Assembly: GCF_030819175.1 (NCBI RefSeq)
Contig: NZ_JAUTBJ010000002.1
Coordinates: forward strand, 2,180,001-2,244,000
Length of the DNA: 64,000 bases
Direction of reading: 5' to 3'
From: Sphingomonas sp. SORGH_AS_0879
Lineage (GTDB): Bacteria > Pseudomonadota > Alphaproteobacteria > Sphingomonadales > Sphingomonadaceae
Made by a program: the position numbers and the translations under genes. The notes under the pieces were generated by a model, which was given only the letters and a program-made list of their open reading frames with translations, searched no databases and had not been told where the DNA came from. The stretch's first letter is position 1; every line of letters starts with the position of its first letter. Shown here piece by piece: positions 11,948 through 50,165 of the stretch.

Positions 11948-13135
11948 TCAGGCGGCGAGGGCATAGCGGCGGCAATGGTCGAGATAGCCCGCCTCATGGC
12001 TACCCGCGAGCGACACGACGCTTTCCCACAGCCATGACGGGGTATCGAGCGCGCCCCGCCGATCCGCCTCCAACGTCTCCAGCCAGTCGCAACGGGTCCG
12101 GTCATCCATCTGCCGTGCATGGGCCTTGCCCACGACGAAAGCGAGATGACGCGCGGCCTTCACCGCCTCGCCCTGACTGAACTGGTCGACCTCCAGCTTC
12201 AGGTCATGCGGGGTCAATTCGCGGATGAAGAGCGAGCGCTCCAGCATATGCACCGGCATCATCCGCGCGCCCAGATAGGGGGACATTGCGTTCGCCGCCG
12301 TCACGACACGCTCGGCATCGTCCTTCGGCATGGCCGCGCCCGGTGCGGCGGGGGCGATGGGGGTGGTCGCTTCCTTCAGGTCGATCAGGGCATAGGACCA
12401 GTTGCCCTTGCCGGTCTTGAGCCCCACGATCGCAGCATAGCGCAGCAGGCCCAGCGAACTACACCCCTTCATCCAATAGGCCGCATCGACCAGGCGAACC
12501 CCACGCCCCTTTGGCTTGCCCTTCAGCGACAGGACCATCCGGGCGACGTCCTCATCGGCGAACAGCGTGGTCAGGGCCTCGCGTTCCTCTGGCGTCAAAT
12601 CCCAGAATTTCTTGCCGAGCGGGATACGCGGCTCGACGGCGTCCAGCCGTTCCTTGGCAAGGTGCCGCCAACGTCGCCCCAATGCCTCCCGCTCGACGCT
12701 GCGGACGATCTCGGACTCGGCGCCCGGATCATCGCTGCCCGGATCGCGCATTGCGGCGGCATAGCCTTCGACCATTTCCTCCATCATCCGCATGGTGACG
12801 ACGCCGGGCAGGTCGGAGCCACGCGCCGCCGTCGCCAGCGACAGCCCCAACCGGATCAGGTCATGCGCGGGATTGCCGATAACGGCCTGATCCAGATCGC
12901 GGATCTGGATTTCCACCGCGCCCTCGCCGTTCGCGACGGGCCCGAGATTGCCGAGATGGCAGTCGCCGCAAATCCAGATGTCCGGTCCCCGAGGAACCCG
13001 TCGGGCGGAAGGCGATTCCGCCAGCCATTCATAGAATTTCGCCGTATTGCCGCGAACATAGGCATAGGCGGATCGGGCCATTTTAAGGGTGCGTTTGGCC
13101 TCGAGAATGGCGAGACGTTCGGTGGGAAGGGGCAT
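11948..13135 (-). CDS. DUF2252 family protein
   Basis: 395 residues, soluble, with the DUF2252 hallmarks: an N-terminal FYRGS-like segment (YAYVRGNTAKFYEWL), then ICGDCHLGNLGP and IQIRDLDQAVIGNPAHDLIRL. The GDxHxxN and DLD arrangement resembles kinase-like (APH/ABC1-type) phosphotransferase folds, so an ATP-dependent phosphotransferase activity has been suspected for the family. The true function is unknown. It is 80 bases upstream of the beta-lactamase-like gene on the same strand and could share its transcript. Confidence 0.85.
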   Translation of the reverse strand: MPLPTERLAILEAKRTLKMARSAYAYVRGNTAKFYEWLAESPSARRVPRGPDIWICGDCHLGNLGPVANGEGAVEIQIRDLDQAVIGNPAHDLIRLGLSLATAARGSDLPGVVTMRMMEEMVEGYAAAMRDPGSDDPGAESEIVRSVEREALGRRWRHLAKERLDAVEPRIPLGKKFWDLTPEEREALTTLFADEDVARMVLSLKGKPKGRGVRLVDAAYWMKGCSSLGLLRYAAIVGLKTGKGNWSYALIDLKEATTPIAPAAPGAAMPKDDAERVVTAANAMSPYLGARMMPVHMLERSLFIRELTPHDLKLEVDQFSQGEAVKAARHLAFVVGKAHARQMDDRTRCDWLETLEADRRGALDTPSWLWESVVSLAGSHEAGYLDHCRRYALAA

Positions 13136-13215: not shown

Positions 13216-14316
13216 CTACCTCGCCGAGCCGACGACCGCGCGCGTCACATCTCCCATCAGGCGCATGCGGGCGGGAATGGATTCCCGCGTGCTGGCGATC
13301 ATGACGGCAACGGCGTAGCGGTGGCCATCGGGCGCGACCAACAGACCGACGTCGTTGTATCCCGTCGAAAGGCTGCCCAGATCCTGCCCGGTCCCCGTCT
13401 TGTGCGCGAGCGTCCAGCCGGGACGAAGCCCGGACTTGAGGCGGAGCGGCCCGGTCTTGCTCGAGCGCATGAGCGTCAGAAGCGAAGACGTCGATCCTGG
13501 GGTCAACAGCTTGCCCTGTGCCAGGAGCGAAAGGCCGAGCGTGACGCCGTTCGCCGACGCGCCGTCCATCGGTGCGGCCAGATAGCGACGCAGCGCCTTT
13601 TCCCGCGCTTCGTAAGTCATCGCGGCGCGGGCCTGGAGGAAGCCCCAGCCGCCGGCCCATTCGGGTCGCCATTGCAAACCGGTGGTCCGCGCCTGCAATT
13701 CCCGCTCGCCGGGGCCGAACTTGACGCCCGCTACGCCCTTTTGGGACAGCATGCGATTGATCGCATCGGGTCCGCCGACCCGCCACAGGAGCACATCGTT
13801 GCATGTATTGTCGCTGCGCGTCATGGCCCCTCGCAGCAACTCGCCGATGGTCGTCCGATAGCCCGTCTTGCCGACAAGGGCGCGGATCGGTTGGTGAAAG
13901 ACGGTCAGGTCCGATCGATTGACGGTGATCGGATCGGAGAGCGACAGGCGACCACGATCGACCGCATCCATGACGGCGATCGCGACCCACAGCTTGCTGA
14001 CGCTTTGTTGCGGGCGGGGACGGTCGCCTTCCCACGCCACGACCCAGCCTTCATCGATATCGCGAACGCTGATGCCCACCTCGCCCTTGAAGGTGCTGCC
14101 AAGAGCCTGAACCGCGTTGAGCAGGTCGGCGGAGGGCTGGGCGCGGGCGGGACGGGCCGGGACCGGCCTGGGACGCGGCGCGGCGGGGGCGGTGGTCTCG
14201 ACCGTGATCGGTACGGCGGCGGGTGGCACGGGTTGGCTGACGGTGGGTACGCATGCGGACGACAGGATCACACAGGCGAGCACAGCGGTGCCGCCGAGCA
14301 GCGATTTCGATACCAA
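13216..14316 (-). CDS. Class A beta-lactamase-like serine hydrolase, probable lipoprotein
   Basis: 366 residues from TTG 14316, chosen because AAGGGAAG lies just upstream and a signal peptide with a possible lipoprotein Cys22 (ILSSAC) follows; a Pro/Ala/Arg linker covers residues 23-60. Active-site motifs are present: Ser105-x-x-Lys108 (SVSK), Ser168-Asp-Asn170, a Glu204 at the omega-loop position (GERELQ, aligned with Glu166 of TEM) and Lys306-Thr-Gly. About 35-40 extra residues follow the omega loop relative to TEM. The enzyme would hydrolyse beta-lactams in the periplasm or act on a related amide or ester. It is divergent from the SDR gene at 14503. Confidence 0.85.
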   Translation of the reverse strand: MVSKSLLGGTAVLACVILSSACVPTVSQPVPPAAVPITVETTAPAAPRPRPVPARPARAQPSADLLNAVQALGSTFKGEVGISVRDIDEGWVVAWEGDRPRPQQSVSKLWVAIAVMDAVDRGRLSLSDPITVNRSDLTVFHQPIRALVGKTGYRTTIGELLRGAMTRSDNTCNDVLLWRVGGPDAINRMLSQKGVAGVKFGPGERELQARTTGLQWRPEWAGGWGFLQARAAMTYEAREKALRRYLAAPMDGASANGVTLGLSLLAQGKLLTPGSTSSLLTLMRSSKTGPLRLKSGLRPGWTLAHKTGTGQDLGSLSTGYNDVGLLVAPDGHRYAVAVMIASTRESIPARMRLMGDVTRAVVGSAR

Positions 14317-14502
14317 CGCAACTTCCCTTTTTCGGCGTCTTTTAGCGGTCCGTCGGGAAAGCGACACCCGATCCCTTTTGTGTTCGACGCTCCTGTCGGT
14401 CCGCTCGTCGCAGGGCGGCGTCGGTGACGACCAAAAGCCGAAACAGGCTGGAACATTCGCGCAGCGCATGGCTTGGCGGTCCGAACATCGAAAGGCTGAT
14501 CC

Positions 14503-15348
14503 ATGTCCTCGTCCACACCCATCTGGTTCATCACGGGCTGCTCGACCGGCTTCGGTCGCGAACTGGCGAAGCTGGTCCTGAAGCAGGGAGCGCGGGCGGT
14601 CGTCACGGCGCGGCGGATCGGCGATGTGGCCGATATCGTCGAGGAGCATCAGGAGAAGGCGCTGGCGCTGGAACTCGACGTGACGAACGACGAGCAGATC
14701 GCGCCGGCGGTGAAGGCGGGACAGGAGCGCTTCGGCGGGATCGATGTGCTGGTGAACAATGCGGGCTATGGATATCAGAGCACGATCGAGGAAGGCGATG
14801 ACGACGCGATCCGCAGGCAGTTCGATGTCAACGTCTTCGGCCTGTTCGCCCTGACCCGTGCCGTCCTGCCCATCATGCGGGCCGCGCGCCGGGGGCATGT
14901 CATCAACATCACGTCGGTGGCGGGGCTGATCGGCTATCCGGGTTCAGGCTATTACGCGGCGTCGAAACATGCGGTGGAGGGCTGGTCCGATGCGCTCGCG
15001 GTCGAAGTCCGGCCGCTGGGCATTCACGTGACCTGCGTCGAGCCCGGCCCTTTCCGGACCGACTGGGCGGGACGTTCACTTCAACAGACGCCCAGCCGGA
15101 TCGCGGACTATGCCGAGACGGCGGGCAAAAGGCTGGCGAGCACGCGGGACATCAGCGGCTCCCAGGCGGGCGACCCGGTCCGGGCGGCCGAGGCAATGAT
15201 CGCGATCACGCAGCAGACGAACCCGCCTCGCCATCTGGTGCTGGGCCGCTGGGGCTTCGACGCGGTCACTGACCGGCTGAAGCAACGTCATGCCGAGATC
15301 GAAGCGAATCGCGACCTCAGCCTGTGTGCCGATTTCCCCGAAAGCTGA
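14503..15348 (+). CDS. Classical short-chain dehydrogenase/reductase
   Basis: 281 residues. The Rossmann glycine motif is TGCSTGFG, followed by NNAG, an ITSVAGLIG strand with catalytic Ser, and YYAASK with catalytic Tyr/Lys; the helix after it carries PGPFRTDW. The fold and length match oxidoreductases of the SDR family annotated as DltE/retinol-dehydrogenase-like proteins. NADP(H) preference is plausible from TARR after strand 2. The substrate is unknown. The gene is divergent from the beta-lactamase-like gene and converges on the nucleotidyltransferase gene 27 bases away. Confidence 0.88.
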   Translation: MSSSTPIWFITGCSTGFGRELAKLVLKQGARAVVTARRIGDVADIVEEHQEKALALELDVTNDEQIAPAVKAGQERFGGIDVLVNNAGYGYQSTIEEGDDDAIRRQFDVNVFGLFALTRAVLPIMRAARRGHVINITSVAGLIGYPGSGYYAASKHAVEGWSDALAVEVRPLGIHVTCVEPGPFRTDWAGRSLQQTPSRIADYAETAGKRLASTRDISGSQAGDPVRAAEAMIAITQQTNPPRHLVLGRWGFDAVTDRLKQRHAEIEANRDLSLCADFPES

Positions 15349-15375: not shown

Positions 15376-16101
15376 TCATGCCGCCCGGCGGCTGGCCGGG
15401 GTTCCGCTATGAAGCCACGCCTCCGCCTTGGCCAGAGCGGGCTGGTCGTCCACGTCGATCCAGTCGACATCGCTGCAATCCAGCGTACGGGCCGTCCCTT
15501 GCTCCGCCAAGACGCGCATCCCCTCGGTCAGCGAGGGGGCATCGAGCCCATGGAGGGCGTCGAACAGACTGTGTCCGATGGCAAAGACGCCGGTGTCGAA
15601 ACAGTCATAGTCGCCCAAGCCCTTGCCGATCTCGACGATCCGCTCGCCCTGGGTCCGGACGCAGGTGACGTCGTCCAGATCGACCCAGTCGCTGTCGATC
15701 CGACGATCGGTCGCCAGCCGGGCCCCGCCACCCGAACCCGCTTCGGCGGTGCGCCGATAGAGTTCGGGATCGGCAAGGTGATCGCACATGGCGAGCAGCG
15801 CGTCCCGGCCGGCGAGCAGAGGTTCGGCCGCGAGCAGCGATACGCCGTTGGGCTTGCGGTAATCCGCCACCCGCACCGTCTCCACGGCAATCGGCCAATT
15901 CCCGGCGGCGAGGTGGCGCTCGATGCTTTCCACACCATAGCCGAGCACCACCACCGCTCGCCGCAATCCCGCTATCGCCAGCCCGTGCAGTGCATGGTCG
16001 ATCAGCGCCCGGCCGCCCACATGGCACAGCGGCTTGTACGGGGCGGCGGAACGCAGGCGGCTGCCTTCGCCCGCCGCCAGCAGGATCGCGGTATCGATCA
16101 T
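15376..16101 (-). CDS. NTP-transferase family protein, candidate inositol-1-phosphate cytidylyltransferase
   Basis: 241 residues from ATG 16101. The nucleotidyltransferase signature LLAAGEGSRLRS is at the N-terminus, with PLCHVGGRALIDHAL and a metal-binding MCDHLAD further on. The length suits sugar-phosphate or phosphocholine cytidylyltransferase-like enzymes. The gene follows the inositol-phosphate synthase gene with one base between stop and start, as the last gene of a three-gene operon. In hyperthermophiles a related domain (IPCT) makes CDP-inositol from inositol-1-phosphate and is paired or fused with a CDP-alcohol phosphotransferase; the same pairing here suggests CDP-inositol formation. 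That specific activity is inference from context. Confidence 0.8.
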   Translation of the reverse strand: MIDTAILLAAGEGSRLRSAAPYKPLCHVGGRALIDHALHGLAIAGLRRAVVVLGYGVESIERHLAAGNWPIAVETVRVADYRKPNGVSLLAAEPLLAGRDALLAMCDHLADPELYRRTAEAGSGGGARLATDRRIDSDWVDLDDVTCVRTQGERIVEIGKGLGDYDCFDTGVFAIGHSLFDALHGLDAPSLTEGMRVLAEQGTARTLDCSDVDWIDVDDQPALAKAEAWLHSGTPASRRAA

Positions 16102-16102
16102 C

Positions 16103-17194
16103 TTACTGGATCGTGATGAAGTCTTCGACCGCCTGGGCGGCAAGATCGTCGGTCATCTGGGTGCGGGGATGCTTGCAGAAATAGGCAGATGCCGCGTCGA
16201 TCGGACCGGCGAGGCCACGATCCTTGGCGAGCTTGGCGCAACGGATCATGTCGATGGCGACGCCCGCGCTGTTCGGGCTGTCCTCGACCGAGAGGCGGAG
16301 TTCGAGGTTCATCGGCACGCCGCCGAACATCGAGCCTTCCATGCGCAGGAAGCAGACCTTGTTGTCGTTCTGCCACGGCACATAGTCCGACGGGCCGATA
16401 TGGACATTCTCATCGTCCAGCCGCTCGGCGGCGACCGACTGAACCGCCTCGGTCTTGGAAATCTTCTTCGAGGCGAGGCGGCGATGGTTCGACATGTTGA
16501 GGAAGTCGGTATTGCCGCCGGTGTTCAGCTGATAGGTGCGCTCCAGCTTGACGCCGCGCTTGGCGAACAGATCGGTCAGCACGCGGTGGACGATGGTCGC
16601 GCCGAGCTGTGCCTTGATGTCGTCGCCGATGATCGGCACGCCCGCCGCTTCGAACTTCGCCGCCCATTCGGGGTTGCTGGCGATGAAGACGGGGATGTTG
16701 TTGACGAAGGCGACGCCCGCCTCCAGCGCGCATTCGGCGTAGAATTCGCTCGCCTTCTGGCTGCCGACGGGCAGGTAGTTCATCAGCACGTCGGTCTTGG
16801 ACTCGCGCAGCGCCGCGACGACCTCCTCCTTGGTCGGTTCCGGCGCGTCGGCGAGCAGGAAGGTGCGGTCGTCCTGATACTCGGCCATATGCTCGGCCAC
16901 GCCGTCCAGGATCTTGCCCATGCGCACGGTCGCGCCGGTCGTCTCGATCGTTTCGCAGAAGATGGCGGTGCAGTTCGGCTTGGCGAAGATCGCCTCGGCC
17001 ACGTCCTTGCCCACCTTGCGGGTGTCGACATCCCAGGCCGCGACGACCTTGATATCGCTGGGCCGATAGCCGCCCAGGTCCCAGTGCATCAGGCCGATCG
17101 TATCATTTGCCCCGTCGCGATAGTGCGACAGTCCCTGAACCAGTGAGCTGGCACAATTGCCGACGCCGACCACAGCGATATTGATGCTCGTCAT
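16103..17194 (-). CDS. myo-Inositol-1-phosphate synthase
   Basis: 363 residues. The NAD-binding start INIAVVGVGNCASSLVQG and the catalytic signatures NYLPVGSQKA, GDDIKAQLGATI and NTGGNTDFLN identify the short archaeal/actinobacterial-type inositol-3-phosphate synthase. It converts glucose-6-phosphate to 1D-myo-inositol 3-phosphate in an NAD-dependent, redox-neutral cyclisation. ATG 17194 overlaps the stop of the upstream CDP-alcohol phosphotransferase gene as ATGA, so translation is coupled. It is the committed step feeding the cassette; its presence predicts de novo inositol synthesis. Confidence 0.93.
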   Translation of the reverse strand: MTSINIAVVGVGNCASSLVQGLSHYRDGANDTIGLMHWDLGGYRPSDIKVVAAWDVDTRKVGKDVAEAIFAKPNCTAIFCETIETTGATVRMGKILDGVAEHMAEYQDDRTFLLADAPEPTKEEVVAALRESKTDVLMNYLPVGSQKASEFYAECALEAGVAFVNNIPVFIASNPEWAAKFEAAGVPIIGDDIKAQLGATIVHRVLTDLFAKRGVKLERTYQLNTGGNTDFLNMSNHRRLASKKISKTEAVQSVAAERLDDENVHIGPSDYVPWQNDNKVCFLRMEGSMFGGVPMNLELRLSVEDSPNSAGVAIDMIRCAKLAKDRGLAGPIDAASAYFCKHPRTQMTDDLAAQAVEDFITIQ

Positions 17195-18060
17195 TGGGTG
17201 TTCATGTCCTTCGAGTGGATCAGGTTTTGTTGATGGAAAGGGGTGTCGGGCCGGATCAGTCGGCGCTCCACCTGGCGATGCCAGACCAGCCCGATGAGCA
17301 GGACCAGCGTCAGCGGCCCGAGTTCGGCCCACCAGAACCAGCGGGGATCGCCCGCCAGACAGGCGAGGAAGATGGTATAGACGCGGACATTGGCGCTCAG
17401 CAGGCTCATCAACCGCATCGGCGGGACGGCCGCGACGCCATAGGTGGTGGCGAGCGACATGGGATCGCTCTGACGCCCCAACGCCACGTCGAAGCGTCCG
17501 GCAAAGCGTTCCAGCGTCCCCGCGACCCAATCATAACAGCGGACCAGCGGGTTGCGGCTGTGCGGCGTAGCGGCGGGGGCGGTCAGCCCCTTGCACCGGC
17601 GGTGGAACCGCGCCCGCTCGCTTTCATAATAGTTGGACTGGACGGCATGGGCCGCTCCGGCGGCGATCGCGAGCAGCCAGCCGCCCATCGTTCCGATCGA
17701 CCAGGCCAGAACGATATAGATCAGCGCGAAGACGCCATGGTCGCACAGGCCGTCCAATGCCCGGCCGAGCGGACTCGCCGTACCCGTCGCGCGAGCGATC
17801 ATCCCGTCCAGCCCATCGGCGATCAGCCAGCAGATGGAGAGGATCAGGCCGAACAGGACGAAACGCCAATCCTGCCACTGGGCATAGCTGATCGCCGCCG
17901 ATGCCCCGAGAAGGAGGCCGCCGACCGACACCATATTGGCCGATATCCGGCGGGCAACGAACCAAGGCAGCAGCAAATCGGCCGCTGGGTGTACGATCCA
18001 GAGATTGGTCGGATCCTCGATCCGGCGATCCCGCGACCGGTCCGGTGGGGGACGTGTCAT
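17191..18060 (-). CDS. CDP-alcohol phosphatidyltransferase family membrane enzyme
   Basis: 289 residues from ATG 18060. The family motif D-G-x2-A-R-x8-G-x3-D-x3-D is complete (DGMIARATG ... LGRALDGLCDHG), followed by several transmembrane helices. Such enzymes displace CMP from a CDP-linked donor by an alcohol or phosphorylated alcohol, in the inner membrane. The N-terminus is charged and cytosolic (about residues 1-20), and a YYESERARFHRR loop follows the fourth helix. It is the first gene of the inositol cassette and overlaps the synthase by ATGA. Likely products are a phosphatidylinositol-type lipid or a di-inositol phosphate-like solute; sequence alone does not decide. Confidence 0.88.
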   Translation of the reverse strand: MTRPPPDRSRDRRIEDPTNLWIVHPAADLLLPWFVARRISANMVSVGGLLLGASAAISYAQWQDWRFVLFGLILSICWLIADGLDGMIARATGTASPLGRALDGLCDHGVFALIYIVLAWSIGTMGGWLLAIAAGAAHAVQSNYYESERARFHRRCKGLTAPAATPHSRNPLVRCYDWVAGTLERFAGRFDVALGRQSDPMSLATTYGVAAVPPMRLMSLLSANVRVYTIFLACLAGDPRWFWWAELGPLTLVLLIGLVWHRQVERRLIRPDTPFHQQNLIHSKDMNTQ

Positions 18061-18276
18061 GCAGATGTCACATACAGCGCCTCCACGAGGTCCGGCAAGC
18101 GATTTGCCTGACCTTCCAATAAAAAGACCGGTCGCGTCGCTTTTCGGACGCGCGATGGAGCCGGGGGACGTCCAGCGCCATCCGCCAAGCTCGTTTTCGT
18201 AGAGGCCGCGTGCGATCAACGACTTGTGCGAGGTGCGGTCGCCGTTAGCTTGGGCGGCGGACAAAGGGGGAAGATC

Positions 18277-19962
18277 ATGCGCGACTTCATGCTCGGACTG
18301 GCGATCACGGCTTCGGTCCTGGCTCAGCCCGCCGCGGCGCGGCAGGTGAAGGTCGAAGAGGTATCGATCGACCAGTTGCAGGCGATAATGGCGAAGGGGC
18401 AGGCGACCAGCGCCGATATCACACGCGCCTATCTGGCCCGGATCGCGGCGATGGATCGCAAGGGCCCGACCTTGCGCAGCGTCATCGCGCTCAACCCCGA
18501 TGCCGTTGCCCAGGCCCGCATACTCGACGAGGAACGACGGCGCGGCCGGGTTCGCGGACCGCTGCATGGCATTCCGATCCTGATCAAGGACAATATCGAG
18601 ACCGCCGATCGGGCCCCGACGACGGCGGGCAGCCTTGCCCTGGCCGACAACGTCACCGGACGCGATGCGCCGGTGGTCGCGCTGCTGCGGCGGGCGGGGG
18701 CGGTCATCCTGGGCAAGACGAACCTGTCGGAATGGGCCAATATCCGCTCGACCCATTCGATGAGCGGATGGAGCGCGGTCGGCGGGCTGGTGCGCAACCC
18801 CTATGCACTCGATCGTACCGCCTGTGGCTCGTCCTCGGGTTCGGGGGCCGCCGTCGCGGCGAGCTTCGCGGCGATCGCGGTCGGCACCGAGACCGATGGA
18901 TCGGTGGTCTGCCCCTCGTCGGTCAACGGCCTGGTCGGGTTCAAGCCCTCGATCGGTCTGGTCAGTCGTACCCATGTCGTGCCGATCAGCCATAGCCAGG
19001 ATACGCCGGGCCCCATGGGTCGCAGCGTCCGGGACGTCGCGACGATGCTGTCGGCCATGGTGGGCCGCGATCCCGCCGATCCGGCGACGGCGAAGGCCAT
19101 GGCCCGCGACTATACGACCGGCCTGTCGACCAGCGCCTTGTCGGGAATGCGAGTCGGGGTGATCCGGCCCAAATCGATGTCGGCACCCCTGCGCGAGCGG
19201 TATGATCAAGCTCTGGACACGCTCAGGGCGGCGGGTGCCATTCTGGTCGATGTGACGGTGCCCGAACTAAAGGGGCTGGGCGATGCCGAACAGACCGTGC
19301 TGATGACCGAGTTGAAGGCCGATCTCGACGCCTATCTCGCCACCACGCCCGCCGCCGTGAAGACACGGACACTCGATCAGGTCATCGCCTTCAATCGCGA
19401 GCACGCGGTCGAGGAAATGCCGTTCTTCGCACAGGAATTGTTCGAGAAGGCGGCGAAGACGAAGGGCTTGAAGGATCCCGCCTATCTCGAAGCCCGGCGG
19501 ACATCCCTGCGGCTGGCGGGCGAGGACGGTATCGATGCGATGTTGAAGACGGCGCGCGTGCAGGTGCTGGTCGCGCCGACCTATGATGCGGCGTGGCTGA
19601 GCGATCCGATACAGGGCGATCAGTATGACGGACCCTCGGCCTCCGAACTGCCGGCGGTGGCGGGGTATCCGCATCTGACCGTACCGATGGGGCTGGTCCG
19701 GGGAATGCCGGTCGGCCTGTCCTTCATCGCTAACGGAGATGCCGACGCGGTCGTGCTGGGGGCGGGCTATGCCTATGAACAGCGTGCCAGGGCCCGGCGG
19801 GTGCCGCGCTATCTGCCGCAGGCCGATGTGGGGAAGGGACTGGACGGACGGCAAGAAAAAGGCCCCGGCGGGAACCGGGGCCTTTCTCGTTCAGGGCGAA
19901 GCGCGTTTAGAAGGTGCCGCGCAGACCGATCAGGAACTGGCGACCGGGCTTGTACTGGGTGA
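18277..19962 (+). CDS. Amidase-signature family hydrolase, secreted
   Basis: 561 residues from ATG 18277, preceded by AAAGGGGGAAG; a signal peptide ends around AAAR. The amidase signature is clear: Lys of the Ser-cisSer-Lys triad in GIPILIKDNIE, the glycine/serine loop ACGSSSGSGAAVAA and ETDGSVVCPSS with the nucleophile. It hydrolyses an unidentified amide, probably in the periplasm. The final 45 or so residues pass through a bidirectional terminator hairpin and overlap the 3' end of the convergent TonB-receptor gene by 56 bases. These terminal residues are probably not part of the fold. Confidence 0.88.
   Translation: MRDFMLGLAITASVLAQPAAARQVKVEEVSIDQLQAIMAKGQATSADITRAYLARIAAMDRKGPTLRSVIALNPDAVAQARILDEERRRGRVRGPLHGIPILIKDNIETADRAPTTAGSLALADNVTGRDAPVVALLRRAGAVILGKTNLSEWANIRSTHSMSGWSAVGGLVRNPYALDRTACGSSSGSGAAVAASFAAIAVGTETDGSVVCPSSVNGLVGFKPSIGLVSRTHVVPISHSQDTPGPMGRSVRDVATMLSAMVGRDPADPATAKAMARDYTTGLSTSALSGMRVGVIRPKSMSAPLRERYDQALDTLRAAGAILVDVTVPELKGLGDAEQTVLMTELKADLDAYLATTPAAVKTRTLDQVIAFNREHAVEEMPFFAQELFEKAAKTKGLKDPAYLEARRTSLRLAGEDGIDAMLKTARVQVLVAPTYDAAWLSDPIQGDQYDGPSASELPAVAGYPHLTVPMGLVRGMPVGLSFIANGDADAVVLGAGYAYEQRARARRVPRYLPQADVGKGLDGRQEKGPGGNRGLSRSGRSAFRRCRADRSGTGDRACTG
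19858..19885. terminator. Bidirectional Rho-independent terminator
   Basis: An 11-bp perfect stem, AAAGGCCCCGG / CCGGGGCCTTT, around a 6-base loop, with flanking A and T tracts. It serves the convergent amidase and TonB-receptor genes, although the amidase frame as written continues through it. Confidence 0.85.
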
Positions 19963-41726: not shown

Positions 41727-41816
41727 TGTTGCAACGTCTCATAATCAGCGAGCGTGGCAAATCAACTGCTCAATTTGGAGGCAGCACGGTGGGGCTTGCC
41801 GGTCGAGCCATAAGAT

Positions 41817-41850
41817 AATGGCCCGGTTTTCCTGCGAAAACCGAGCCATT
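41817..41850. terminator. Terminator hairpin after ugd
   Basis: AATGGC-C-CGGTTTT pairs with AAAACCG-A-GCCATT (13 pairs, one mismatch) around a CCTGCG loop, 28 bases past the expected ugd stop. The frame as written runs through it, further evidence that the ugd frame is broken. Confidence 0.75.
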
Positions 41851-41877
41851 GCCATGTGTCGCCTGAAGCGAGCGCCG

Positions 41878-43045
41878 TCAGTCGGAGCCGAAGATATCGC
41901 GTGTGAACAGCTTTTCGGGGACATCGGCCAGTTCGGGCGCGTTGCGGTTGGCGATGATGACATCGGACTCCGCCTTGAACGCGTCGAGATCGCGGATCAC
42001 GCGCGATCCGAAGAACCTGGTCTTCCTCCAGCGCGGGCTCGTAGACGATCACTTCGATGCCCTTGGCCTTGACCCGCTTCATGATCCCCTGGATCGACGA
42101 CTGGCGGAAATTGTCCGATCCCGCCTTCATGGTCAGGCGATAGACGCCCATCTTGCGCGGTGCGCGGGCGATGATCTGATCCGCCAGGAAATCCTTGCGG
42201 GTGCGGTTCGCGTCCACGATCGCGCGGATCAGGTTCTGCGGCACTTCCGAATAATTGGCGAGGAGCTGCTTGGTATCCTTGGGAAGGCAATAGCCACCAT
42301 AGCCGAAGCTCGGATTGTTGTAATGCGTGCCGACGCGGGGGTCGAGGCCGACGCCCTCGATGATCTGGCGCGTGTCCATGCCGCCCGCGATCGCATAGCT
42401 GTCGAGTTCGTTGAAGAAGGCGACGCGCATGGCGAGATAGGTGTTGGCGAACAGCTTGATCGCCTCGGCCTCGCGTGCGTCGGTGAACAGGACGGGGGCG
42501 TCCTTCTTCTCGGCACCCTGGACAAGCAGTTCGGCGAAGATGCGTGCCCGCTCAGACCGTTCGCCGACGATCACGCGCGACGGATGGAGATTGTCGTACA
42601 GCGCCCGGCCTTCGCGCAGGAATTCCGGGCTAAAGATCACCTGCGTCGTGTTCAGGCGCGCGCGGACGTCGTCGACGAAGCCGACCGGGATGGTCGACTT
42701 GACGATGACGGTCGCGTCGGGCGCATGCTCCTTCGCCAACTGGATCACCGCCTCGACCGAGCCGGTGTTGAACTTGTTCGTCTCGACGTCATAGTTGGTC
42801 GGCGTCGCCACGATGACATAGTCCGCAGCCGCCAGCGCCTCGGCCGCATCGGTGGTCGCCGACAGGTTCAGCGTGCGGTTGGTCAGGAACTCCTCCAACT
42901 CGGCGTCGATGATCGGGGAGATGCGCGCGTTGACCTGCGCCACACGCTCTTCCGATATGTCGACCGCAACGACCTGATTATGCTGCGCCAGGAGAACGGC
43001 ATTGGACATGCCGACATAGCCGAGGCCGAAAACAGCGATCTTCAT
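41878..43045 (-). pseudogene. ugd: UDP-glucose 6-dehydrogenase with a single-base insertion
   Basis: The first 343 codons match the 388-residue Ugd of E. coli closely: [42 protein letters not shown] and the catalytic [14 protein letters not shown]. At 42016-42017 an extra base (GG on the minus strand) shifts the frame after EEDQ. Dropping one base restores [16 protein letters not shown] and the expected end FTRDIFGSD, with a stop at 41878; as written the frame runs to 41762. The enzyme oxidises UDP-glucose to UDP-glucuronate, which the exopolysaccharide glycosyltransferases here would need. It is divergent from the initiating transferase gene. Confidence 0.92.
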
Positions 43046-43442
43046 TCGTCAAACCCCATATCCGTGGGTGGAGCCCGTTCAGGTCCGGTACGTCACTGCG
43101 ACTAGCCGTCCCGGTCGATCGACCACAACCCCATTTCATGACGCGAAAGACAGGCAATTTGCCCAAGCGCGGGACTTTTATTGTTAAGCACTTAACCCTT
43201 GTCCCACGCTCCAGGAAATTAATTGATGCTGCAGTGCGATGCAATCTTGACTTTTCCGAACGTGCGAGGGTCCACCCCGGTTTAGCGATGGTGGACGCCT
43301 GATTAACGGCGCGTTGCCAAAAATTCAGGCTTTTCGACCTATTCCACGGTGAGACGCTGCTGCGGCGCAAAATATCTAGTCCCGCAGCGGCCTTGGGGCT
43401 ACATTCTGCCTCATTCAAAGAAATCAGGGCAGGTCGGCTATC
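43046..43442. promoter_or_regulatory. Divergent control region of ugd and the priming transferase
   Basis: 397 bases with no convincing gene. It is AT-richer than its flanks and contains a perfect palindrome GTTAAG-CA-CTTAAC (43183-43196) and an AATTAATT stretch near 43217. It must carry the promoters for both exopolysaccharide transcripts. Confidence 0.55.
43183..43196. promoter_or_regulatory. Palindromic operator candidate in EPS control region
   Basis: GTTAAG-CA-CTTAAC, a perfect 6-2-6 inverted repeat, about 140 bases upstream of ugd and 245 upstream of the priming transferase. Confidence 0.4.
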
Positions 43443-44831
43443 ATGGATATGGGAAGATTCCATAGCAAGGCGCCGATGCAGAGGGTAAGGCGCTTGAGTA
43501 TTCCAGCTTCGATATTGCGCTTTCGGGCGCTGATTACCCTCATCCTGATAGATTTGATCTGTGTCGCGGCAGGTTTTGCTGGAGCCGCCTATTTCCGCTT
43601 CGTCCTTTTGGGTCACACCCGCTGGACGCTTGCGATTGTGACATTGTTGTCAGTTTACTTCCTGACTTCCTTCTCGATCCGCGCCTATGATCAGGAAAAC
43701 CTGACCAATCCGCGCCATGCTGCAGCGCAAGGTGCCAAGGCGCTGCTGCTCTCGGTCTGTGCGGTCATCCTGGTGGCCTTCGTTTTTCAGGCCAGCGAGG
43801 ATTTTCCCCGCGTCGTCATAGCCCTGGGCGCGCTGATCGGGACCCTGCTGATCGCCTCCGCCCGTTATGCCTTCGTCCGAAATATGGCACAGCTTATCGG
43901 CGGCAACCCCTTTACCGTTATGCTGCTTCACGATGGCCGCTCGCCGATTCCGCAGGGAGAGTTTTCGCAGGTCATCGAGACCGGCGATCGTTTCGACCCC
44001 AATCTGCACGACCCGATCATGTATGATCGCCTCGCCCGGCTGGTCGCCAGTGCCGATCGCGTCGTGGTGGCATGTGCGCCCGATACGCGGATCGCCTGGG
44101 CGAATGCGTTGAAGGGGACGGGTGTCCAGAGCGAGATCTTCGTACCCGAACTCAGCCAGCTCGCGCCGCTCGGCATCTCTTCCTGTGCCGCGACGCCGAC
44201 CATGATCGTGGCGGTCGGGCCGCTCGGTCTTTTCGATCGCTTTCTGAAGCGTCTGTTCGATATCGCGGTGTCGGGACTGGCACTGTTCCTGCTCGCGCCG
44301 GTGCTGGGGATCATTGCCCTGCTCGTTCGCCTGGACAGTCCGGGGCCGATCCTGTTCCGACAGGTTCGCATCGGATGGGGGAACGAGATGTTCCACATCC
44401 TCAAGTTCCGCAGCATGTATGTCGAGGGCAGCGATGGGGCGGGGCATCGCTCCGCCTCGCGCGATGACGACCGCATCACGCGCGTCGGGCGGTTCATCCG
44501 CATGACAAGCATGGACGAGCTTCCCCAGATCATCAACGTGCTGAAGGGCGATATGAGCATCGTCGGCCCGCGCCCCCATGCGCTGGGTTCGCGCGCGGCC
44601 GAGAAGCTGTTCTGGGAAGTCGATGGGCGCTATTGGCAGCGCCACTCGGTCAAGCCGGGCTTGACCGGTCTGGCGCAGGTGCGGGGGTATCGCGGTGCCA
44701 CCCTGATCGAGGACGATCTGCGCAACCGACTGCAGGCCGATCTCGAATATCTGGAGCATTGGTCGATCTGGCGCGACATACGGATCGTGCTTCAGACGTT
44801 CCAGGTTCTGCTCCACCGCAACGCCTATTGA
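43443..44831 (+). CDS. Exopolysaccharide priming polyprenyl glycosylphosphotransferase
   Basis: 462 residues. The N-terminal third has about four membrane helices and a soluble loop; the C-terminal half is the bacterial sugar-transferase domain, beginning KRLFDIAVSGLALFLLAP and continuing with DSPGPILFRQVRIG, ILKFRSMYV, MDELPQIINVLKGDMSIVGPRP and KPGLTGLAQVRGYRG. It transfers a sugar-1-phosphate, probably glucose-1-phosphate as in SpsB/GelB/WcaJ, to undecaprenyl phosphate on the cytosolic face and so starts repeat-unit assembly. It is divergent from ugd and faces the glycosyltransferase operon across a 168-base gap. Confidence 0.93.
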   Translation: MDMGRFHSKAPMQRVRRLSIPASILRFRALITLILIDLICVAAGFAGAAYFRFVLLGHTRWTLAIVTLLSVYFLTSFSIRAYDQENLTNPRHAAAQGAKALLLSVCAVILVAFVFQASEDFPRVVIALGALIGTLLIASARYAFVRNMAQLIGGNPFTVMLLHDGRSPIPQGEFSQVIETGDRFDPNLHDPIMYDRLARLVASADRVVVACAPDTRIAWANALKGTGVQSEIFVPELSQLAPLGISSCAATPTMIVAVGPLGLFDRFLKRLFDIAVSGLALFLLAPVLGIIALLVRLDSPGPILFRQVRIGWGNEMFHILKFRSMYVEGSDGAGHRSASRDDDRITRVGRFIRMTSMDELPQIINVLKGDMSIVGPRPHALGSRAAEKLFWEVDGRYWQRHSVKPGLTGLAQVRGYRGATLIEDDLRNRLQADLEYLEHWSIWRDIRIVLQTFQVLLHRNAY

Positions 44832-44969
44832 GGATGCGGCGGGGACGGAGGGCCTCGCTTGGCCCCTTGGTTCTGGCCGAATAGCGCGATCGACGTGGCC
44901 GATCTGGAGCGGACTTGCGGCTGTTCTCCCGTCCATCGGACCAATGAGATAAATCGCATTCCTGCCTAA

Positions 44970-44998
44970 TAGGGTCCCGAATGGGGAAGGGGGCCCTA
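44970..44998. terminator. Hairpin between convergent EPS genes
   Basis: TAGGGTCCC pairs with GGGGCCCTA (nine pairs, one G-U) around an 11-base loop at the end of the glycosyltransferase operon. It may end transcription from both sides, though no clear U-tract follows. Confidence 0.45.
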
Positions 44999-44999
44999 C

Positions 45000-45953
45000 T
45001 TATCCCTTCAGCTTCGACGGCGCATATTCCTGATAGGAATGGCCCAATATGCCCATGGTCAGCCCGGCCCCCCGCAGCAGGTGGACCATCGCCCGTCCGC
45101 CCCAATAGGGCGAAACCAGCATCGCGGGCGACATCGCCGCGCCCAGGCCCATGCGGACCACGCCACGGGCCAGTTGCTTGGCCTTCTCACCACGCGACCC
45201 CTCGATCCGGGTCGCGACGGCGAAGGTGTTGCCCAGCCGATACTGGCGCTGCCGCTGCCACTTCATGGTCAGCCGGTTGACCGGGAACATGTCGTAGACG
45301 AGCGCCTGATCCGACCAGTGGATTCGGATACCCCGTCGCCAGGCCTGGTTGAAGAACAGATAGTCGCTGCCGCCGGTGAAGCGCATCCGCGCATCGAAGC
45401 GCAGATCGAGTTCGCGAAACCGCGCCAGATCGAACATGACGTTGTTCGACGCCGCGAAGTTCAGTCTCTGGCCCTCGGCATAGCGTTTGCGATCGTAAAG
45501 ACGGCTGCGACGCAGCCAGTCGTCCACCGGCCCCTCGAAAACGGGCTCGATCGGTCCATAGACGCAATCGGCGCCGGTCGCCTCGCGCGTCCGCAGCATC
45601 GAATCGAGCCAGCCATCGACCGGCCATTCGTCGTCGTCCAGGAAACAGAAGAGCTCGGTCCCTTCGGGCGCGCTGTCCATCGCGCGATTGCGGGCGATGG
45701 GGATGCCCTGCTGCGGCTCGACGACATAATGGAGGTCATATTCGGGGCGACCGGCATGGGCCATCACCGCCTCTCGGCTGCTGCCCGACGCGTCGTTATC
45801 GACGACCACGATGCTGAGCCGCCAGGGTCGCGCGGGGTCGCAATGCTGGTTCCGCATGATGCGAAGCAGCTTGTCGATCCCCTCCGGTCGCCGAAAGGTC
45901 AGGACGCCCAAAGTGATGTGGATCGGGGCGCGGTCGGCGGACATGGCGCTCAC
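45000..45953 (-). CDS. Family 2 glycosyltransferase
   Basis: 317 residues from GTG 45953, overlapping the upstream stop as GTGA (ATG 45944 is the alternative). GT-A features: LGVLTFRRPEGIDKLL, SIVVVDNDASG, a QQGIPIARNRAMD region and the metal-binding FLDDDEWPVDGWLD. One C-terminal hydrophobic stretch may touch the membrane. It likely adds one sugar to the lipid-linked repeat. It is the last gene of the seven-gene operon. Confidence 0.88.
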   Translation of the reverse strand: MSAMSADRAPIHITLGVLTFRRPEGIDKLLRIMRNQHCDPARPWRLSIVVVDNDASGSSREAVMAHAGRPEYDLHYVVEPQQGIPIARNRAMDSAPEGTELFCFLDDDEWPVDGWLDSMLRTREATGADCVYGPIEPVFEGPVDDWLRRSRLYDRKRYAEGQRLNFAASNNVMFDLARFRELDLRFDARMRFTGGSDYLFFNQAWRRGIRIHWSDQALVYDMFPVNRLTMKWQRQRQYRLGNTFAVATRIEGSRGEKAKQLARGVVRMGLGAAMSPAMLVSPYWGGRAMVHLLRGAGLTMGILGHSYQEYAPSKLKG

Positions 45954-46840
45954 CGGCCCAGCAGCGACCGGGCCGCGCCGGTGATGCGCTTGCGGATGAC
46001 CTGCGTCGTCAGATTCTGCCGGGTCCAGCCCATGCCGCGTGCCTCGCGTGCGACGCGATCGATCTCGGCCAGCGTGTCGGTAATGCCCAGATGCGCATCG
46101 GCTATGCCGCCGGTGACCAGGCTCTTGCCCATCCGGCCCAATCCGTCGAACCGACGCGCCAGATGCAGGCCGGTCGCCATCATGATCTGCGGCTTCAGCG
46201 ACTTGGCGCGATCAGTGTTGGTGTAGCGATTATTCTCGTGCAGCCGCTGGAAGGTCAGCGGGGTCTCGACCAGCACGCCTGGTGCCAGATAGGCCGCCGC
46301 GAACTTCAGGTAATTGTCGCTCAGCACGACGTCGTCGGCCAGCGGCATCGGCAGGATCTGCGACAGGATCGACCGATGGAAGGTCAGGCCGGACGTCGGA
46401 ACGGGCAGGGTCGGGAAGCCACCCGCGCGCATCGTCTCGCGCTTGTCGATCGGCGTGATCGCGATCTCGTCGGGAACCGCCCCGCCTTCGTCATTCGTCA
46501 CGCGGTCGAAACACCAGCCGACCTGCCGCTGGGCATAGATGTCGGCGATGCGCGTCAGTTTGCCGGGAAGAAAGAAATCGTCCGCGTCGAGCATCATCAG
46601 CACGTCGCCGGTCGACGCCGCAAAGCCCGCATTGAAGCTGGAGGCCTGTCCGCCATTGGGCTTGAGCACCGGCGTCACCGCGTCGCCATAGCTGGCGATC
46701 ACCGAACGGGATTCGTCGGTCGATCCGTCATCGACCACGATGATTTCCGCGCCGAGGTGATTTTGCGACAACACGCTGTCGATGCAGGCGCGCAAATACC
46801 GGGCATAATTATAATTGTTGATGAGGACCGACAGCTTCAT
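45950..46840 (-). CDS. Family 2 glycosyltransferase
   Basis: 296 residues from ATG 46840 with GGGGAAG upstream. GT-A features: VLINNYNYARYLRACIDSVL, IIVVDDGSTDES, and the DxD in MMLDADDFFLPGKL. It resembles glycosyltransferases of capsule and exopolysaccharide loci. The 100-base gap to the preceding acyltransferase is the only sizeable spacing in the operon, so a minor internal promoter is possible. Confidence 0.9.
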   Translation of the reverse strand: MKLSVLINNYNYARYLRACIDSVLSQNHLGAEIIVVDDGSTDESRSVIASYGDAVTPVLKPNGGQASSFNAGFAASTGDVLMMLDADDFFLPGKLTRIADIYAQRQVGWCFDRVTNDEGGAVPDEIAITPIDKRETMRAGGFPTLPVPTSGLTFHRSILSQILPMPLADDVVLSDNYLKFAAAYLAPGVLVETPLTFQRLHENNRYTNTDRAKSLKPQIMMATGLHLARRFDGLGRMGKSLVTGGIADAHLGITDTLAEIDRVAREARGMGWTRQNLTTQVIRKRITGAARSLLGR

Positions 46841-46940
46841 TGCACTTCCCCGTTTGCCCTCAAAAACATGTCGCTCTGCAGCATTAGCATAAGCGGGCGC
46901 ATGTCCGCGATGACGAACCATTGCTGTCCCATAAGAAAAT

Positions 46941-47426
46941 TCATTCCGGCTGATCCGCCGTCACCGCCTCGTCGGCACCGATCCGGCCATAACGGGCGAC
47001 GATGCGCAGGTTGCTGCGAATGACGCGCGCGGGATTGCCGGCGACCAGCGAATTGGGGGGAACGTCCTTCGTCACCACCGATCCCGAGCCGATGACGCAT
47101 TCGTCTCCGATCCGAATCCCCGGCAGGATGATGCTGCGCGCGCCGATGAAGCAGCGACGGCCGATCCAGGTGTCCAGGTACAGGCCGCGCGTCAGATCAT
47201 GCGTCAGGATCGCCGCGTCGAACGCGACGTAGCTCTCCTCGCCGATATGCAGCCCTTTCGGGTTCGTCCGATCGAACTTCGCCGATAGGGAGAATTGCGC
47301 GGTGGGGTGGATGTCCATCCCCCAGAACCGGACATACCAGAAGCGCTTGGCTTCCACGAAGATGTTGCGCAGCTTCTTGAGGCGGTTGAGGCCCCATTGC
47401 GGCTTGGCTCCGCTGGTGCGTGCCAC
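46941..47426 (-). CDS. Hexapeptide-repeat acyltransferase (WcaF-like)
   Basis: 161 residues from GTG 47426, with GGAGGA eight bases upstream, right after the preceding stop. The left-handed beta-helix repeats run from about residue 60 (TAQFSLSAKF, IGEESYVAFDAAILTHD, IGRRCFIGARSIILPG, IGDECVIGSGSVVTKDV), with VVTKDVPPNSLVAGNPARVI closing the fold. Such proteins O-acetylate sugars of exopolysaccharides using acetyl-CoA. The His of HDL is the likely catalytic residue. Confidence 0.88.
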   Translation of the reverse strand: MARTSGAKPQWGLNRLKKLRNIFVEAKRFWYVRFWGMDIHPTAQFSLSAKFDRTNPKGLHIGEESYVAFDAAILTHDLTRGLYLDTWIGRRCFIGARSIILPGIRIGDECVIGSGSVVTKDVPPNSLVAGNPARVIRSNLRIVARYGRIGADEAVTADQPE

Positions 47427-47428
47427 GA

Positions 47429-48595
47429 TCAGTTCCTCCGATAATCCGCGAGGACGCGGTCGTAATAGTCTTCGAGCAGGCGGGTCTGCGCATGCAGGTC
47501 GAAACGCTCCGCCACCCATTCCGGGGCCCGCCGATGGAAAGCACACCAGCGGTCGTCGTCCGACAACAGGCCACCGACGGCGTTGACCATCGCGGCAACG
47601 TCCCGCTCTTCCGCGAGCAGTCCGGTGCGCCCTTCCTCCACCGCCTCGCCGACGCCGCCCGAACGGAAGGCGATCACCGGGGTGCCCACCGCCTGCGCCT
47701 CCAGATTGGCGATCCCGAATGCCTCGGCATGGCCGTTGTCCAGCGTCACGCTGCCGTGCAGATAGAGTTGCGCCCGGCCCAACTCGGCACGGATCGCGTT
47801 CTGGCTGAGGCGGGCGTGATGGGTCACGCGCGGCAGGTTGGCGCGGGCATAGTCCAGCGTCACCGCCGCTTCGGGGCCGTCGCCGATCATCACATAATCG
47901 ACCGGAACGCCCCGAGCCGCGACGCGGGCCAGCGCATCGATCATGTAGCGATAGCCCTTATACTCGACGAAGCGCGCGATCGACACGACGCGGCCCGGGA
48001 TGCGGGGGCTGGGATCGGGGTGGAAGAGGCCGCGATCGACGCCGATATAATGGCGATGGATGGACTCCGCCGGGAAGCCCAGGTCGAGCAACCGGTCGCG
48101 GATGAAGTCCGAAACCGCGATATGATAACCGCCCGCGCCCGCCATCTGCGCACGCCCCTTCGCAAAGAAGCGGACCTGGTTGAACCCGCCCGGCTTTTTC
48201 GGATCGCCGCGATAGGTCGCGTCGAAACCGTGGAAGGTCGTCACCAACGGCTTGTCCATCGCTCGGGCGAGCGGGGAGAGGACATAGCCATTCTTGCCGA
48301 AATGCGCATGGATCAGATCGGCACGGGCCAGCGGGGGAAACAGGGCAGGCGCCGCGATCCGTGGGATCTTCAACAAAAGCGACCCCGCCTTCATCAGCGG
48401 CGAATTCGCGATGGAATGGACGGGCAGGTCGGTTTCCGCACCATGGCCGTCACCCATGCGCTGGCCGACCAGAAATTCGGGCGAATAGCGTTCATAGCCG
48501 CGCGCCTGCGCCAGCACGAAAGCCTGACTGGGTGGAAGAAAGCGCTCGACGAAGATCGCGACACGCTTGCCGTCACGGCTCGGTGCGGCGCTCAT
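47429..48595 (-). CDS. Family 4 glycosyltransferase
   Basis: 388 residues from ATG 48595 (ATGA overlap with the GH10 stop). GT-B fold: an N-terminal domain with HAHFGKNGYVLSPLA and TFHGFDATYRGD, then SIARFVEYKGYRYMIDAL and the nucleotide-sugar site GHAEAFGIANLEAQAVGTPVIA with the EX7E pattern. It should be a retaining transferase working on the cytosolic face of the membrane on the growing repeat unit. Confidence 0.9.
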   Translation of the reverse strand: MSAAPSRDGKRVAIFVERFLPPSQAFVLAQARGYERYSPEFLVGQRMGDGHGAETDLPVHSIANSPLMKAGSLLLKIPRIAAPALFPPLARADLIHAHFGKNGYVLSPLARAMDKPLVTTFHGFDATYRGDPKKPGGFNQVRFFAKGRAQMAGAGGYHIAVSDFIRDRLLDLGFPAESIHRHYIGVDRGLFHPDPSPRIPGRVVSIARFVEYKGYRYMIDALARVAARGVPVDYVMIGDGPEAAVTLDYARANLPRVTHHARLSQNAIRAELGRAQLYLHGSVTLDNGHAEAFGIANLEAQAVGTPVIAFRSGGVGEAVEEGRTGLLAEERDVAAMVNAVGGLLSDDDRWCAFHRRAPEWVAERFDLHAQTRLLEDYYDRVLADYRRN

Positions 48596-49680: not shown

Positions 49681-50165
49681 TACCGCGCCCCGGCGCTGCG
49701 GATGATCGAATCGAGATGCTGCATCAATCGCTGGCGCCCGGGCGGGACCACGTCGCCACCCGGGGGCGGCGCGAGATCGCTGGCAAGAAGCGTGTGAAGC
49801 TCCTCTGCGGTCCGCGCGACATAGAGGCCGGGCCGCCCCTCCAGCTGCGACACGGTCGCCATCTGGTGATCGTTGCGATGTTCGCCATGCGCGGCGAGGC
49901 GCGGGAAGAGAATGGCGGGGCGACCGACCCGCTGACAGGTCAGGATCGTGCCGATACCGGCATGGGCGACCACGACCCGCGCGCGCCCGAAATAGGCGTC
50001 GACATCCAGCGGGCGGATGCGCGGACTCCATTCGATATTGCGGGGGACATAGGTCGACTTGCCGGTCTGGGCGAAGATCGGTTCGTCCAGGGTCGGGGCG
50101 ATGGCGTCGATCGCCTCGATCAGCCGGTCGAAGGGCAGTTGCGTGCCGACGGTGACGAAGATCAC
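49680..50165 (-). CDS. PssE/Alg13-like glycosyltransferase catalytic subunit
   Basis: 161 residues from GTG 50165, overlapping the PssD-like stop as GTGA. It starts IFVTVGTQLPFDRLIEAID and has VVVAHAGIGTILTC plus a PRLAAHGEHRNDHQ donor-binding loop, as in the C-terminal GT28 domain of Alg13/PssE/EpsF. It forms a two-subunit transferase with the membrane partner encoded just upstream. In Rhizobium and sphingans the corresponding pair or enzyme adds beta-1,4-linked glucuronic acid to lipid-linked glucose, which would explain the need for ugd. Confidence 0.88.
   Translation of the reverse strand: MIFVTVGTQLPFDRLIEAIDAIAPTLDEPIFAQTGKSTYVPRNIEWSPRIRPLDVDAYFGRARVVVAHAGIGTILTCQRVGRPAILFPRLAAHGEHRNDHQMATVSQLEGRPGLYVARTAEELHTLLASDLAPPPGGDVVPPGRQRLMQHLDSIIRSAGAR

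Follow-up and report, generated by a model that had tools for sequence, protein, structure and literature searches.

Sphingomonads replace lipopolysaccharide (LPS) with glycosphingolipids, and the fungal/eukaryotic inositol phosphorylceramide synthases (AUR1 type) use phosphatidylinositol (PI) as donor. Jorge et al. 2015 are said to have described cytidine diphosphate (CDP)-inositol-dependent synthesis of dialkylether glycerophosphoinositol in Rhodothermus marinus, and their abstract reportedly mentions homologues in Alphaproteobacteria. Here we report on a 64,000-nucleotide stretch of the Sphingomonas sp. SORGH_AS_0879 genome (contig NZ_JAUTBJ010000002.1, positions 2,180,001 to 2,244,000; referred to as the window), in which three intact open frames, arranged head to tail on the minus strand at 15376-18060, encode a CDP-alcohol phosphotransferase (CDP-AP), a myo-inositol phosphate synthase (ino1) and a nucleotidyltransferase (NTase). 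Our data suggest that this cassette provides a Kennedy-type route to an inositol sphingolipid.

Among bacteria, inositol lipids are comparatively uncommon (PMC9246714, abstract). The inositol-lipid cluster of Bacteroides vulgatus and Prevotella resembles the window cassette in that an NTP transferase and a CDP-AP lie near an inositol phosphate synthase, with synthesis proposed to proceed via CDP-inositol (PMC9246714), a proposal restated for Bacteroidota in PMC10191378. Conversion of PI to its ceramide form is proposed to depend on BT_1522 or on a HAD protein (PMC9246714). The Bacteroides cluster includes a HAD hydrolase as the proposed enzyme of phosphoinositol transfer from PI to dihydroceramide (PMC9246714); no HAD gene lies beside the window cassette, the flanks of which are a short-chain dehydrogenase and an amidase gene, and HAD genes elsewhere in the genome were not sought. 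In the Caulobacter ceramide diphosphoglycerate pathway the ceramide head group comes from a CDP donor made by a cytidylyltransferase (PMC12275187), as we propose for the cassette, and CC_1159, which has a CDP-alcohol domain, takes part in the phosphoglycerate route (PMC12275187, PMC11324152). That pathway differs in its CDP-glycerate donor and in a ceramide kinase step (PMC12275187, PMC11324152), and the window NTase is without the segments of a probably CpgD-like NTase group (see below).

The NTase and CDP-AP folds are like those of Archaeoglobus IPCT-DIPPS (4mnd) and AF2299 (4o6m, 4q7c), with CDP-inositol chemistry in the case of IPCT-DIPPS; the archaeal proteins are fused or domain-bearing, whereas the window bacterium has separate genes. 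As in Rhodothermus marinus, inositol and not the lipid would be activated with cytidine triphosphate (CTP), and a CDP-AP would pass phosphoinositol to the lipid; unlike the ether glycerolipid acceptor of that organism, the linkage of the cassette points to ceramide, and the likeness is drawn at the level of the pathway. The proposed product is the same as that of the eukaryotic AUR1-type synthase, which takes PI as donor, whereas CDP-inositol is the donor proposed here and the enzymes are unrelated. CDP-inositol lipid synthesis is known from Rhodothermus, and direct transfer to ceramide would be new; to our knowledge, direct CDP-inositol:ceramide transfer has no counterpart. Among the matches listed in a search of the open-licence literature, no title dealt with this cassette of sphingomonads. 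Were ceramide the acceptor, inositol phosphoceramide would be reached by a third way, in addition to those of fungi and Bacteroides, and with CDP-inositol instead of PI as donor.

The three enzymes of the cassette

In the route that we propose, Ino1 would convert glucose 6-phosphate to 1D-myo-inositol 3-phosphate (= 1L-myo-inositol 1-phosphate), from which the NTase, with CTP, would make CDP-inositol; CDP-AP, a multi-helix membrane enzyme, would then transfer phosphoinositol from CDP-inositol directly onto ceramide, giving inositol phosphoceramide and cytidine monophosphate, with ceramide supplied by the serine palmitoyltransferase (SPT) pathway encoded elsewhere in the genome. What is observed is the gene content, the intact motifs, the family placement of the proteins, their co-inheritance and, in related lineages, linkage to ceramide genes; from this we infer the substrates of all three enzymes. 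Since the trio would supply, activate and transfer inositol phosphate, and since it stands alone in most of the loci read, these three enzymes probably make the end product on their own, starting from common metabolites.

The initial annotation, made from the sequence alone, had named these three genes and described them as joined by a 4-base overlap and a 1-base gap. Coordinates, trio, overlap and gap are correct to the base (Table 1), and the enzyme assignments hold in searches of Pfam and PDB; each protein exceeds the curated Pfam cut-off (CDP-OH_P_transf, 7.6e-10; Inos-1-P_synth, 7.1e-38; NTP_transf_3, 7.2e-11). Beyond that annotation we find that the cassette comes in a second type, that in relatives it is linked to ceramide gene clusters, and that it is also linked to capsule export.

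Table 1 Coordinates of the cassette and its flanking genes in the window
Feature	Position	Strand	Remark
CDP-AP, CDP-alcohol phosphotransferase, first gene	18060-17191	-	289 aa, ATG...TGA; proposed CDP-inositol:ceramide (or diacylglycerol) phosphoinositol transferase
ino1, myo-inositol phosphate synthase, actinobacterial type	17194-16103	-	363 aa, ATG...TAA
NTase, nucleotidyltransferase	16101-15376	-	241 aa, ATG...TGA; proposed CTP:L-myo-inositol-1-phosphate cytidylyltransferase
ATGA overlap (4 bases), CDP-AP stop / ino1 start	17191..17194	-	sequence
1-base gap, ino1 stop / NTase start	16102	-	sequence
Short-chain dehydrogenase, flank on NTase side	14503-15348	opposite strand to cassette	
Amidase, flank on CDP-AP side	18226-19962	opposite strand to cassette	

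By profile, the NTase is nearest to the inositol-1-phosphate cytidylyltransferases (IPCT). A single-sequence search gave 2xme and 4mnd (both Archaeoglobus IPCTs) and 4jd0 as best solved relatives, followed by GlmU-type enzymes, and a profile of 22 sequences gave the same three (1.6e-34, 4.1e-34 and 8.2e-27, respectively), with the next protein at 5e-14. The deposition title of 4jd0 is 'nucleotidyl transferase' and we take it to be the Thermotoga IPCT; a Thermotoga IPCT structure is among the references of PMC13228409. The segments NG-x-S, DH, IGK, D-x-G-x-F and W-x-D-x-D are invariant or nearly so in the NTase alignments and match the Archaeoglobus IPCT (HMMER alignment). The score of 91.2 bits against NCBIfam NF041135 is under its cut-off of 580, this model describing the fused bifunctional protein of the archaeal Thermococcales. 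One annotation source already labels a Novosphingobium relative '1L-myo-inositol 1-phosphate cytidylyltransferase'. A more distant NTase group, found in the search of the class, mostly has DN-x-x-SC, DDMKV and ESIG at the corresponding places, and a ceramide-type GNAT gene adjoins several of its loci; this group is probably CpgD-like, judging from PMC12275187 and its place beside ceramide-type genes. In the alignment the window NTase is without these three segments and has NG-x-S and DTG-x-F like the A. fulgidus IPCT. It is highly probable that the NTase makes CDP-inositol.

In the CDP-AP the motif D-x2-D-G-x2-A-R-x8-G-x3-D-x3-D is complete (residues 82-107 of the window protein) and invariant in 38 aligned sequences, and the protein passes the PF01066 cut-off. 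Its single-sequence search placed choline phosphotransferases first, weakly (1.9e-4), with 4mnd only at E 0.4; by profile, AF2299 came first and CEPT1 second at 4.1e-10. In a structure-based comparison, which the initial annotation had suggested making with IPCT/DIPPS, the predicted structure has a fold resembling archaeal AF2299 and IPCT-DIPPS (Foldseek, VIA-align run). Unlike the bifunctional IPCT/DIPPS, the CDP-AP is a separate membrane protein, and it scores 21.4 bits against the IPCT/DIPPS model (NF041135), far under the cut-off of 580. A tree of 66 CDP-APs has three main branches, one with types I and A including the window protein, one with G036 together with G512 and G422, and one with Caulobacter sp. 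S45, group B, Novosphingobium and type II (for the types, see below); the branches of Caulobacter sp. S45 and some others are flagged as long.

For Ino1 the best solved relative is 1gr0 (E 9.5e-120), presumably the M. tuberculosis-type inositol phosphate synthase, in line with PF01658 at 7.1e-38; the score against the TIGR03450 equivalog model, 452.8 bits, is under its cut-off of 638.

A second CDP-AP gene adjoins the cassette in several family members (L031:7441-8793, L043:9166-10428, L032:8244-9338). It encodes roughly 125-210 extra residues ahead of the CDP-AP domain, the only domain that Pfam recognises, and for the L031 protein the best solved relative is IPCT-DIPPS.

Distribution and co-inheritance

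The cassette is real and conserved, and not a chance association. In the genus (101 genomes), NTase (E<=1e-22) and CDP-AP (E<=1e-12) were found in an identical set of 66. Type I cassettes (44 of the 66 carriers) have a CDP-AP that is 52% or more identical to that of the window and lies on the same strand as NTase, while in type II (22/66) the identity is 28-34% and CDP-AP lies on the opposite strand. The two types replace each other, none of the 66 genomes having both; a further CDP-AP, which is partial, lies at the start of a G172 contig. A draw of 119 genomes from the family gave CDP-AP (E<=1e-20) in 15 and NTase (E<=1e-30) in 14, all within those 15; in the fifteenth, G092, CDP-AP lies on a 4.7-kb contig that ends inside ino1. 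The trio is clustered in 12 of the 14 NTase genomes and scattered in G036 and G068. Strong ino1 matches (E<=1e-140) are present in 29 of the 119 genomes, against 14 with NTase, and hence ino1 also occurs without the cassette. Moreover, the pairwise distances of the three proteins across 46 loci are correlated with r = 0.90-0.94, a level reached in 0 of 2000 permutations and to which shared species history contributes.

A related NTase was also found in 91 of 149 genomes of the genus Novosphingobium. A scan of named genomes, of which the best 80 of 264 loci were kept, gave as carriers 11 named Novosphingobium species, Croceibacterium, Aurantiacibacter, Erythrobacter, Sphingomonas adhaesiva, S. 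corticis, S. ginsenosidimutans and Caulobacter sp. S45; N. acidiphilum and S. paucimobilis are not among these 80. Within the fetched stretches, ino1 is present in 78/80 and CDP-AP in 68/80 of these loci. In Sphingomonas parapaucimobilis YK209 the trio lies on an 853-kb plasmid record (NZ_CP155750.1; L078).

In the context table (60 rows, 59 fetched loci and the window) most Sphingomonas cassettes have varying neighbours with no common function apparent. Neighbours of type II cassettes, e.g. a Cu/Zn superoxide dismutase (PF00080) and others judged by eye, were taken as unrelated.

Linkage to ceramide genes

Support for ceramide as the acceptor comes from lineages in which the cassette lies among ceramide genes. 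In G512, genes for a GT32 enzyme, ino1, NTase and CDP-AP run in one direction inside a ceramide-gene stretch, with SPT (NF047599, 667 bits; cut-off 500) and an acyl carrier protein on one side and a fatty acyl-AMP ligase, a reductase, a GNAT protein and a fatty acid hydroxylase on the other; LptF and GT4 genes lie in the same stretch. The G422 genes are on two contigs, one with SPT, hydroxylase, GNAT, ino1, NTase and GT32 and the other with reductase, acyl-AMP ligase, CDP-AP, two LptF/G and GT4; each has an SPT piece at one end, and the contigs were left unjoined. In Caulobacter sp. S45, SPT, acyl carrier protein, reductase, acyl-AMP ligase, GNAT, CDP-AP and NTase are encoded within 12.3 kb. 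The positions of NTase and SPT are both known for 13 Novosphingobium genomes; in two of them, N. aerophilum and N. piscinae, some 8 kb separate the two genes. In 2/17 type II loci homologues of the GNAT protein and the fatty acid desaturase of the host ceramide locus are 5-6 kb away. From its gene place the GNAT protein is a putative ceramide synthase; cerS is among the five ceramide genes of Caulobacter (PMC11324152). CDP-AP relatives of the G512/G422 lineage carry, among others, the names Azospirillum, Nitrospirillum and Acetobacteraceae. In the plasmid collection the G512 CDP-AP had one Sphingomonas match and its NTase none, and no named record of a complete G512-type cluster was found.

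The host of the window cassette has its own SPT gene (G000:C2:1127947-1129152; NF047603, 832.7 bits, cut-off 670), near which lie genes for an acyl carrier protein, a reductase, a homologue of the G512 GNAT protein, a fatty acid desaturase and two LptF/G-type permeases, which indicates that the host can make ceramide. An SPT match (E<=1e-85 to the G512 protein, the family model having been checked for the G512 and window-genome proteins) was found in 19/19 searched named carriers and in 5/5 sphingomonads of a draw of 337 Alphaproteobacteria (the class draw). Four other Sphingomonadaceae genomes of that draw each have SPT and none has the cassette.

Across the class draw, SPT is present in 49 genomes at the above threshold, NTase in 27 (E<=1e-22) and both in 20 (Fisher p 1.6e-13); wide context was read for 12 of the 27 NTase genomes, plus G504, G479 and G294. 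We rejected this overlap as support for ceramide, as 18 of the 27 belong to the weaker, probably CpgD-like NTase group, in which SPT is present in 17/18 genomes. The CDP-AP of the window type (E<=1e-25) was found in 3 of the 337 genomes, that of the window, G512 and G422, all of which bear SPT (hypergeometric p about 0.003), a small count in which one genome is the window's own and the other two are related. Accordingly, it is the short CDP-AP that goes with ceramide; NTase alone does not.

A PIG-L-like protein and a GT4 enzyme (L266:9244-10005; L227:37-597) adjoin the ceramide/inositol clusters of G422 and G512, an arrangement that brings GlcNAc-inositol chemistry to mind; the PIG-L match does not reach the Pfam cut-off (26.9 vs 28.2) and its likeness to MshB is weak (0.015). 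A search of solved structures gave no close relative of the GT32 protein. The GT32, GT4 and PIG-L-like genes of these two genomes hint at glycosylated forms of the product.

The acceptor of phosphoinositol

That the CDP-AP is a membrane protein, and the nature of its neighbours, argue for a lipid product, and the acceptor of phosphoinositol is very probably a lipid. On balance, the linkage to ceramide genes points to ceramide as this lipid. Several observations weigh against ceramide, all the same. The host SPT is 1.07 Mb from the cassette, and no member of the window CDP-AP clade (types I and A) was found beside ceramide genes, the linked ones being in the other two clades; of these, G512 and G422 are each other's nearest relatives in the CDP-AP tree and so are not two independent cases. 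NTase and SPT are distant or on different contigs in 11/13 Novosphingobium genomes, the Caulobacter sp. S45 cluster is without ino1 in 40 of its 43 kb, and in several lineages the cassette lies in capsule clusters instead. SPT is present in every sphingomonad checked, and its presence there therefore discriminates little. Only 3 of the 9 class-draw genomes with an IPCT-like NTase (the window's, G512 and G422) have SPT; six (G223, G230, G264, G270, G343 and G407; L229-L234) have this NTase and ino1 with no SPT match, and their CDP-APs are different, several being longer or fused to NTase, possibly for a separate CDP-inositol pathway. Finally, an S. paucimobilis lipid has a head group of the same mass as that of the N. 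acidiphilum lipid described below but is without the 241 m/z inositol fragment (PMC9246714).

The CDP-AP may instead move phosphoinositol onto diacylglycerol to give ordinary PI, any ceramide form arising later by exchange; we regard this as a lesser but real possibility. The only CDP-inositol lipid synthase that we know of, that of Rhodothermus marinus, uses a glycerolipid, and the choline phosphotransferases and CEPT1 in the CDP-AP searches fit such an acceptor. Diacylglycerol is, furthermore, the acceptor proposed for the Bacteroides NTP-transferase cluster (PMC9246714). We favour ceramide over diacylglycerol because of the ceramide-gene linkage in three non-sphingomonad genomes and two Novosphingobium species; that the window CDP-AP type was found only in SPT-bearing genomes of the class draw also speaks against the glycerolipid. 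The initial annotation had left the product as either a phosphoinositol lipid or an osmolyte, and it is the lipid that is well supported. For the osmolyte, di-myo-inositol phosphate as in hyperthermophiles, we see hardly any likelihood, since the CDP-AP scores far under the IPCT/DIPPS cut-off and the related CDP-APs neighbour ceramide (envelope lipid) and capsule genes; the weak single-sequence match to 4mnd agrees, and the hosts are, as is generally known, mesophiles. Very unlikely too is an NTase that activates another compound, e.g. phosphoglycerate like Caulobacter CpgD, with ino1 a mere neighbour. The making of a sphingolipid head group depends on the cytidylyltransferase CpgD (PMC12275187), and SPT accompanies the weaker NTase group almost throughout; we set this substrate low because of the IPCT-type segments of the window NTase, most of the weak group having DN-x-x-SC and ESIG, and ino1 is near NTase in nearly all named loci.

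CDP-inositol might also feed a surface glycan, with CDP-AP making the lipid anchor of a capsule chain or putting inositol phosphate on the glycan. NTase is followed by a Wzi family gene in 7 loci of the family (one scanned; PF14052, 3.5e-63), and in group B the cassette is accompanied by an ABC ATPase, a KpsM-like permease (NF050053, 1.1e-26), a KpsE-like protein (TIGR01010, 1.2e-95; both under curated cut-offs) and GT4 enzymes. In the named loci KpsE-like and ABC-2 genes are present in 12/80 and a Wza-like gene in 9/80. In G144 (L098) an ABC ATPase, a GT4, a Poly_export/SLBB protein (labelled Wza-like), another GT4, a second CDP-AP and the trio share one strand, and G032 (L032) is arranged similarly with a nearly complete same-strand run. 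We nevertheless consider a glycan product improbable: no capsule genes were found beside the trio in most Sphingomonas and most named Novosphingobium loci, the nearest polysaccharide genes in the window are 24 kb away, and a role in the capsule may be an additional one for the same lipid.

With inositol phosphoceramide as the favoured product, the cassette provides candidate genes for a lipid of Novosphingobium acidiphilum. PMC9246714 finds this lipid consistent with phosphoinositol-dihydroceramide, made by the species 'despite lacking homology' to the Bacteroides clusters, either one. The breadth of the cassette, in the 66/101 genus genomes and with NTase in 91/149 Novosphingobium genomes, makes the question of the genes for this lipid directly testable. 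If the proposal is true, sphingomonads would have an extra anionic sphingolipid and bacteria a direct route to lipids that fungi and plants make differently. Some relatives probably go on to glycosylate the product (adjoining GT32 and GT4) or use it as a surface-glycan anchor (adjoining capsule genes). More speculatively, Alphaproteobacteria may possess a complete glycosyl inositol phosphoceramide route through direct transfer from CDP-inositol to ceramide, extended in G512 and G422 by GT32, GT4 and perhaps a PIG-L-type deacetylase, used as a capsule anchor in Erythrobacter/Croceibacterium and present in its minimal form in the window; the lipids of such a route might, just as tentatively, resemble the glycosyl inositol phosphoceramides of plants and fungi.

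Eight loci (L119, L143, L171, L183, L185, L187, L189 and L190), from Croceibacterium, Aurantiacibacter, a Novosphingobium and Erythrobacter relatives, have a capsule-type export cluster (KpsE-like, ABC-2, ABC ATPase, Wza-like and glycosyltransferase genes) around an inositol cassette with two CDP-APs. Elsewhere in the window, 41762-53081 is an exopolysaccharide cluster with a UDP-glucose dehydrogenase type enzyme, a priming sugar transferase, two GT2 and one GT4 enzymes and a Wzz/tyrosine-kinase-like protein; its GT4 is 34% identical to the GT4 of G422. On the NTase side, 13216-14898 encodes a Beta-lactamase-fold protein (Beta-lactamase2, 6.3e-42), the open frame of which probably extends upstream of the true start, and near it, at 11948-13135, lies a gene for a DUF2252 protein.

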